Source: Clostridiales bacterium
Lineage (GTDB): Bacteria; Bacillota; Clostridia; Christensenellales; Pumilibacteraceae
Direction of reading: 5' to 3'
DNA: 52,764 bases
Assembly: GCA_029066805.1 (NCBI GenBank)
Contig: JAIEFT010000009.1
Span: forward strand, 1 to 52,764
Below, one piece after another: positions 51,401 to 52,522 of this stretch. The translations under genes and the position numbers were made by a program. The notes under the pieces were generated by a model. The model was not told the origin of the DNA and did not search any database. It worked only from the letters and a program-made list of their open reading frames with translations. Position 1 is the stretch's first letter. Each line of letters opens with the position of its first letter.

Positions 51401-52522
51401 GGCATGAAGGTCACTGCGGTGGAAAAGATGTTTGAGTCGGACGGCATGAACACCATGTCGCTGCTCAATTCGGGCAAGATCGACTATCTTGTATCGACTT
51501 CCACGCGCGGCAGGATTCCCACGCACGACGACGTGCGCTTGCGTTGCAGAGCCGTCACACGCGGAATACCGTGCCTTACGGCTATCGACACGGCAAACGC
51601 ATTGGCGCGTGCGCTGAAAAGCCGTTACAGCCAGAACAACACAGAGCTTGTGGACATCAACGACATGCGTACAGAGCGGCAGCGGCTTAACTTTATAAAA
51701 ATGCACGGCTGCGGCAACGATTATATTTATGTAGATTGCTTGACAAAGCCCATAAACAACATGGAGTCCGTTGCAGTCAATCTTTCGGACAGGCATTTCA
51801 GCGTGGGCGGCGACGGCGTTATATTCATCTATCCGTCCGAAACGTGCGACGCGCAAATGCGCATGTTCAACTCCGACGGTTCGGAGGGCAAGATGTGCGG
51901 CAACGGCATACGCTGCGTTGGTAAGTATCTTTACGACAACGGCAAGACGGACAAGCTCGACATAACAGTAGATACTCTGTCCGGCGTGAAAAAGCTCAAG
52001 CTGTTTGCTCGCGACGGCAAGGTCAATTCGGTCAAGGTCGATATGGGCGCGGCGATACTAGATCCCAAAAAAGTTCCTGTGCGCTTACCCGGCGACAGCA
52101 TAATAGATAGGGAAATCGAAACGCCGCTCGGCAAGTTTAATATTACATGCTCGTCCATGGGAAATCCGCACTGCACGATTTTAGTTCAGGACGTGCAAAA
52201 TACCGATGTTGAAGGTATAGGCAGTGCAATCGGACAGAACAAGTCGCTGTTCCCCGAAGGAGTAAACGTCGGGTTCTTGCAGGTCATAGACAGAACGCAC
52301 CTTAAACTCCGCGTGTACGAGCGTGGCACGGGCGAAACTATGGCGTGCGGCAGCGGTGCGTGCGCGGCGACGGTCGCGGCGGTACTCAACGGCAAGTGCG
52401 ACAAGGACACCGACATTTCGGTAAGACTGCCCGGCGGCGAGCTTATCATTCGCTATACCGACGACACGGTTTACCTGACGGGCGAGGCGTGCGAGGTGTT
52501 CCGCGGCACAGTTAGGCTGTAG
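48479..52522 (+). CDS. carB-dapF: Carbamoyl-phosphate synthase large subunit fused in frame to diaminopimelate epimerase
   Basis: One uninterrupted 1347-residue frame. Residues 1-1062 are a complete CarB: two ATP-grasp halves ([17 protein letters not shown] and [17 protein letters not shown] starts; [20 protein letters not shown] and [18 protein letters not shown]), then the MGS-like allosteric domain ending near TELVDINDM. Residues from about 1068 ([17 protein letters not shown]) to the end are a complete DapF, with both catalytic cysteines in MCGNGIRC and [11 protein letters not shown]. DapF turns LL- into meso-diaminopimelate for lysine and peptidoglycan. The junction has no stop, linker or well-placed ribosome binding site. 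GGAGG precedes ATG 48479, which overlaps carA. A sequencing or assembly artefact at the junction cannot be excluded, but both halves read cleanly. Confidence 0.93.
   Translation: [1347 protein letters not shown]

Follow-up and report, generated by a model that had tools for sequence, protein, structure and literature searches.

An in-frame fusion of the carbamoyl-phosphate synthase large subunit and diaminopimelate epimerase in Clostridia, with a probable second role of the epimerase domain

Carbamoyl-phosphate synthase (CPSase) is a textbook allosteric enzyme, and in the eukaryotic forms CAD, fungal Ura2 and CPS1 a single chain holds the CPSase core along with additional domains. In CAD and Ura2 the joined steps belong to the same pathway, and Ura2 keeps an inactive dihydroorotase domain, the reaction being done by a separate active enzyme. 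Diaminopimelate (DAP) epimerase, DapF, belongs to the DAP/lysine pathway; its substrate LL-DAP is made by DapL, and meso-DAP dehydrogenase bypasses it. According to PMC6245113, the C-terminal domain of E. coli CarB mediates inhibition by UMP as well as activation by IMP and ornithine, with Thr977 and Lys993 being important for UMP and Thr1042 for ornithine; for human CPS1, PMC4655335 reports that N-acetyl-L-glutamate exerts its activating effect through binding to the C-terminal part. Among the structures of DapF, the H. influenzae C73S and C217S mutants (PDB 2q9h, 2q9j) keep the fold and are laboratory versions of natural substitutions described below, although they are engineered single mutants and not fused to CarB.

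The window, by which we mean the whole stretch of DNA analysed (52,764 nucleotides from a gut bacterium), carries on its forward strand one open frame of 1347 amino-acid codons (carB::dapF, 48479..52522) that joins both families. Residues 1–1046 (48479..51616) comprise the two ATP-grasp halves, the oligomerisation domain and the MGS allosteric domain of CarB, and residues 3–1046 match the NCBIfam model TIGR01369 with 1419.2 bits against a cut-off of 1027. The complete DAP epimerase fold follows in residues 1071–1345, which together with the last two residues and the stop codon occupy 51689..52522 and match TIGR00652 with 276.6 bits against a cut-off of 114.65; Pfam domain calls agree with both. 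Cys1140 (51896..51898) corresponds to catalytic Cys73 of E. coli DapF, a position lost in many relatives, and Cys1290 (52346..52348) to the second catalytic residue, Cys217. The in-frame fusion of two complete enzymes with both catalytic cysteines, as proposed by the sequence-only reading, is thus borne out by the frame, the family matches and the two residues. At 14 positions of the ATP-grasp halves, chosen as catalytic after E. coli CarB, the window's CarB has the E. coli residue throughout, and its DapF part holds all six DAP-contact residues (Asn11, 64, 157, 190, Glu208 and Arg209).

Compared with E. coli CarB, with which it shares the full-length family match, catalytic and effector residues and a carA partner upstream, the fused protein continues beyond the MGS domain for about 280 residues that make up an entire DapF. 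Compared with free DapF (TIGR00652; PDB 2otn, 9mro), it shares the full-length match, both cysteines, the six DAP contacts and the fold; instead of a free-standing protein of about 275–300 residues, however, the epimerase is the C-terminal part of the 1347-residue frame with its N-terminus joined to CarB, and many fused relatives lack Cys73. In contrast to CAD and Ura2, the partner is DapF and not an enzyme of the pyrimidine pathway, and the Cys73 state has changed several times among the CarB-DapF fusions. In the predicted structure of the window's MGS-DapF part (mean pLDDT 88.8), which matches DapF 2otn at a TM of 0.89 in Foldseek, the junction is the stretch of lowest confidence (65) and the domain orientation is not fixed by the model.

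The junction (residues 1047–1070, 51617..51688, +) contains neither a stop nor a Shine-Dalgarno signal, and the reading frame is open throughout 51600–51760. A conserved tail at 51638–51670 aligns with CarB's own C-terminus: from alignment with unfused CarBs and DapFs, NTELVDIND is the C-terminal tail of CarB and FIKMHG the usual start of DapF, which leaves next to no linker between the two. The spacing is constant across relatives: the distance between the MGS motif DTA and the DapF motif KM is 39 residues in 172 of 177 fused proteins by pattern and, by eye, also in the remaining 5, which the pattern misread. Upstream of the start at 48479 lies AAAGCTTATGGAGGATAACC, with an anti-Shine-Dalgarno duplex of −9.3 kcal/mol, compared to −3.0 and −1.7 kcal/mol for the internal Met codons at 51665 and 51701. 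Among relatives, 0% of 126 and 2% of 199 junction Met sites reached −7 kcal/mol, as against 7% of 6069 background Met codons and 31% of 13 CarB starts. The earlier expectation of a junction lacking stop, linker and internal ribosome binding site therefore holds, given the open frame, the weak internal Met scores and a junction made of the CarB tail.

The same architecture is found widely among relatives. Of the 20 genomes of the genus, 16 hold an open frame of more than 1300 aa, the size for which a search had been suggested; the gene is truncated by a contig end in the remaining four, either within the fused frame (G011, G012), or because the contig starts just ahead of DapF (G007), or because CarB runs off the contig with no DapF seen (G010). 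The fusion is present in the named strain Anaerocaecibacter muris CLA-AA-M11 (Pumilibacteraceae, Clostridia), whose record is not labelled as a MAG and whose protein is 92% identical to the window's in CarB and 86% in DapF. It occurs in at least 88 of 296 sampled genomes of the order, made up of 84 from one listing and four from another, and in at least 19 of 398 of the phylum, two of which are single-contig (G499, G524). Retrieval with patterns from this junction, which gives no measure of frequency, yielded 80 loci, of which 79 are fused and one begins at a contig end. Directly upstream of the fused gene lies carA in 137 of the 140 loci with enough sequence there. Among plasmid records, the best 5 of 119 matches listed show no fusion and cover the DapF part. 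Genome bins that bear the labels Synergistaceae (L089, L090) and Treponema (L081) contain the fusion too, which may reflect transfer or misbinning; in the Synergistaceae-labelled pair both cysteines and several pocket residues are changed.

Since the window lies on contig C61, 90,422 bases long, in a 94% complete draft assembly with 61 contigs and 1.93 Mb, one could suspect a stop or frameshift missed in assembly, or an internal start that yields a separate DapF. An assembly error is, however, ruled out by the same fused frame and junction in relatives, comprising the 16 genomes of the genus with no contrary case in the other four, the named strain and the single-contig genomes, and an internal start is made improbable by the absence of a ribosome-binding signal at a constant junction, which leaves an artefact or two separate proteins with, in our estimate, a negligible probability. 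A recent private fusion is ruled out by the genome surveys and the trees described below.

No paper on a CarB-DapF fusion was found in the open-access literature searched, the terms diaminopimelate, carbamoyl and dapF are absent from the main text of PMC4921024, and no solved structure joins the two proteins, the best matching stretches covering one half or the other. The remark that no CarB-DapF enzyme has been described thus stands for the literature searched, but the architecture as such is widespread in genomes. We consider it a multidomain CPSase variant built from known component families, for which no report was found within that literature.

In phylogenetic trees the fused CarBs form one clade with a support of 100 in both FastTree and IQ-TREE and the unfused CarBs lie outside, apart from two rows. 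These are L171, from G010, at a contig end, and L177, from G035, whose CarB stops at the junction and which we take for a later split of a fused gene. The clade comprises 133 rows including one split gene in the largest IQ-TREE, again with a support of 100. Six fused rows with fewer than 350 CarB residues were dropped from the FastTree tree, while the IQ-TREE trees, one of which is built on a hand-picked set of 85, leave out rows below 500 residues and the unfused L170 (very divergent), L171 (cut by the contig end) and L252, L254 and L255 (close to L256). Given this clade with its full support, a single old fusion, mostly vertically inherited in Clostridia, is most likely, and independent fusions in many lineages are not needed. 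Free DapF trees are weakly resolved, DapF being short, and place three standalone copies among the fused ones in one tree and five in another. Constraining the tree to group the fused DapFs (48 fused rows together with L007, L283 and L031, L166 excluded, after omission of 9 standalone DapFs on long branches and roughly half of the remaining ones) is not rejected, with a p-AU of 0.849 and a likelihood better than the free search found.

Loss of a stop between operon neighbours, one of the origins considered in the sequence-only reading, fits the gene order carA, carB::dapF, pyrG, dapL and also that of four genomes from a single genus (L252, L254, L255, L256), where unfused carB, dapF and dapL are adjacent on the same strand, so that carB and dapF came together there as well. 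These four genomes also carry a Cys73-less fusion, and the CarB and DapF of the unfused run differ from those of the fusion. As a separate observation, a 666-codon frame in G024 (L166, 2008–4005, +) has an intact DapF behind a heavily decayed CarB-like piece and adjoins a frame with a glutamine-amidotransferase domain, no proper CarB being seen in that genome; its DapF lies outside the fused clade in the trees, and by sequence it looks like a fusion with a decaying CarB half and a kept DapF.

The fused gene of the window lies in a cluster in the order purF, carA, carB::dapF, pyrG, dapL. The gene for amidophosphoribosyltransferase, purF (45956..47392, +), is followed by carA for the small subunit (47401..48492, +), which overlaps carB by 14 bases; pyrG (CTP synthase, 53020–54639 of C61) and dapL (LL-DAP aminotransferase, 54639–55838) stand beyond the window on the same contig, past some 500 bases with direct repeats, of which 52523..52764 (+) fall into the window. 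This spacer contains two families of 77-base direct repeats (52527–52764, continuing to about 52941 of C61), and a 40-base piece of one repeat was found nowhere else in the genome. Further upstream in the window we noted one open frame of 3714 aa (30881–42025, +) and a 401-aa glutamine-synthetase-like protein that stays below family cut-offs (43940–45145, +). The idea that the two activities belong to unrelated pathways is too strong in this setting, because the cluster itself combines pyrimidine genes (carA, carB, pyrG) with DAP genes (dapF, dapL).

The fused gene encodes the only full CarB of the genome, two other matches being weak and partial (36.8 and 30.9 bits, in frames of 457 and 385 residues). 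A second dapF, the presence of which had been named as a check, was looked for in this genome and none was found, and meso-DAP dehydrogenase gave no match there at an E of 0.001. The MurE of the genome has the DNPR motif, which we take to be the mark of a DAP-adding MurE, and lysA is present. Judging from these sequences, the DapF part of the window is probably a working epimerase and the cell's route from LL-DAP to meso-DAP. We propose that the protein would make carbamoyl phosphate together with CarA, while its C-terminal domain would epimerise LL-DAP supplied by the neighbouring DapL.

In many relatives, a different situation is observed. By alignment to E. coli DapF, Cys73 is replaced by A, G or S in 61 of the 121 fused genomes inspected, and this loss goes along with a second dapF: where one is present (59 genomes), Cys73 is lost in 54 and kept in 5 (G088, G341, G385, G424 and G425), whereas in the 62 genomes with no second dapF seen it is lost in 7 and kept in 55. 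The 121 genomes comprise a set of 103 and a set of 18, in which a second dapF means two matches in the search listing; the second copy was read in three of the 18 (G425, G524, G424) and has both cysteines. Among the 103, 42 genomes were read with both a fused and a standalone DapF, and the standalone copy keeps both cysteines in all 42, while the fused copy lacks Cys73 in 41. As side observations, two of 76 standalone DapF copies lack Cys73, and in one standalone DapF (L284, from G037) both catalytic cysteines are serines.

In nine genomes the only full DapF has a broken catalytic pair, seven lacking Cys73 and two (G071, G229) lacking Cys217. Six of them (G250, G291, G115, G042, G071 and G229) have a full meso-DAP dehydrogenase, and in G222 a fragment of dapF is found where a contig ends; despite their dapF fragments, both G042 and G222 enter the counts as genomes without a second dapF. 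In G300 and G214 no other route to meso-DAP was seen beside the Cys-less copy, for which assembly gaps may account. The search for the dehydrogenase covered 17 of the 121 fused genomes; it is also found in G041 with an intact sole DapF and in G316 with two dapF genes, so its presence by itself proves nothing, and it gave no match in G000, G001, G020, G211 and G050. Altogether, 58 of the 61 Cys73-less genomes have a second dapF or the dehydrogenase. The surroundings of the genes point in the same direction: among loci with enough sequence, dapL lies within 2.4 kb downstream of 36 of 56 Cys-bearing fused genes, 0 of 11 Cys-less fused genes and 43 of 47 standalone dapF genes, and within 1.2 kb downstream of 14 of 58, 0 of 31 and 26 of 65, respectively, suggesting that the standalone dapF tends to hold the place in the DAP cluster where the fused copy has lost Cys73. 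In loci such as L035 and L041, dapL directly follows the fused gene, while pyrG stands between gene and dapL in four fused loci (L015, L034, L058, L086), in the standalone locus L146 and in the window's genome.

On the trees, the Cys73 state changes 8 times in FastTree, 8 times in the 85-row IQ-TREE and 11 times in the larger one, and well-supported branches alone force 6 changes in FastTree and 8 in the 85-row tree. The counts give no direction, but we read the changes as losses because a catalytic cysteine is unlikely to be regained. If kinship is ignored, Cys73 loss is strongly associated with a second dapF (Fisher p of 3e-19 on 99 genomes), while kinship-corrected pairs are not significant: of 200 pairings, 168 gave 3–4 to 0 and 32 gave 3–4 to 1.

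The Cys-less domains are nevertheless retained in frame. Their dN/dS of 0.016–0.193 in ten lineages compares to 0.019–0.148 for Cys-bearing domains in four lineages, undefined dS values being left out and single ratios being rough since many dS exceed 1; decay of the Cys-less domains is ruled out by these values. The contact residues were defined from crystal structures for which PMC12039745 gives Asn13, 66, 164 and 197, Glu215, Arg216 and Cys75/Cys224, taken as equivalents of 11, 64, 157, 190, 208, 209, 73 and 217 here. Among 74 distinct Cys-less domains (rows below 230 residues or identical ones dropped), alanine occupies position 73 in 35, glycine in 22 and serine in 17, all six DAP-contact residues are kept in 52, Cys217 in 62 and Glu208 in 72. 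Conservation of the pocket is on a par with that of other conserved columns (median 0.905) and no higher, and therefore its retention does not prove ligand binding; several pocket residues are also lost in some Cys-less domains (L089, L090, L167). For the Cys-less relative L088 a DapF fold is predicted (mean pLDDT 86.7), whose model matches the inhibitor-bound structure 9mro at a TM of 0.92 by target length in Foldseek. While the window's domain with both cysteines is not a pseudoenzyme, these relatives combine the loss of a catalytic residue with a kept fold.

Since purifying selection acts on the Cys-less domains, which remain in frame and mostly keep their contact residues, a second, non-catalytic role of the DapF domain is probable. 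We propose that the domain would have a further job on the synthase that involves no catalysis, in which it would either control the enzyme through binding of DAP or be required for its structure, and that this job would keep it attached once another enzyme takes over epimerisation. Taken as a whole, the reading of an old fusion that is bifunctional in the window, with a DapF domain that has such an added job, appears probable to us. The notion that the allosteric MGS domain has gained a new C-terminal neighbour gains support from relatives that retain the domain without Cys73, while plain stoichiometry, also considered before, fails to explain a domain kept after this loss.

A simpler account would be that stop loss fused two operon neighbours and that the domain has since been kept as baggage, from which Cys73 drifts away wherever another route to meso-DAP exists. 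The operon context, a junction that is CarB's own C-terminal tail and a catalytic loss that follows redundancy would all be expected from such a neutral ratchet, and the fused-clade CarB of G035 that ends at the junction indicates that the domain can be shed. Drift should, however, relax the whole domain, yet dN/dS is about as low as in Cys-bearing copies, Cys217 and Glu208 are kept in most Cys-less domains and position 73 is restricted to three residues, so we consider this account unlikely. Even less probable, in our view, is that the Cys-less domains catalyse another reaction, e.g. as lyases or as isomerases of a different kind that share the DapF fold, and hence would not be non-catalytic at all. 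The fold does host other reactions, Foldseek also retrieving PhzF, O-ureidoserine racemase and proline-racemase-like proteins, and the strong purifying selection would fit an active enzyme; the mostly unchanged DAP-contact residues argue against a new substrate, and A, G and S provide no acid/base residue at position 73.

Returning to a non-catalytic job on the synthase, one specific form would be that the fused DapF is an allosteric domain which reads the diaminopimelate level and sets carbamoyl-phosphate output, a reading we put forward tentatively and hold to be possible rather than probable. Pyrimidine supply, and with it that of UDP-sugars, would then be tied to the supply of cell-wall precursors. 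A uridine nucleotide and meso-DAP are both required for UDP-MurNAc-tripeptide, which could be a reason for such a linkage. Lineages with another route to meso-DAP would lose Cys73 and turn the domain into a pure sensor, and several of these would also have given up the nucleotide-effector site of the MGS domain. In the window's CarB, Thr977, Lys993 and Thr1042 are all present. Among the CarBs compared, all 81 Cys73-bearing fusions and all 15 unfused CarBs have Lys993, whereas only 19 of the 54 Cys73-less fusions do and the other 35 lack it; Thr1042 is present in every protein of the three groups, and the 14 catalytic positions are intact in 81 of 81, 14 of 15 and 53 of 54, respectively. The Lys993 pattern amounts to four changes on the tree and is thus a lead, and no proof, that control moved from nucleotides to the DapF domain. 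By analogy, the nearest precedent for a Cys73-less DapF domain kept on CarB may be the inactive dihydroorotase domain of Ura2.

For annotation, our data imply that fused proteins match both family models and that, in species without Cys73, counting the DapF part among the epimerases should be avoided. A domain that is kept although one of its catalytic residues has been lost repeatedly constitutes a natural experiment on enzymes becoming sensors or scaffolds. If true, a widespread CPSase with an extra metabolite-binding domain, for which we found no report, would add a control input that links nucleotide and cell-wall synthesis.
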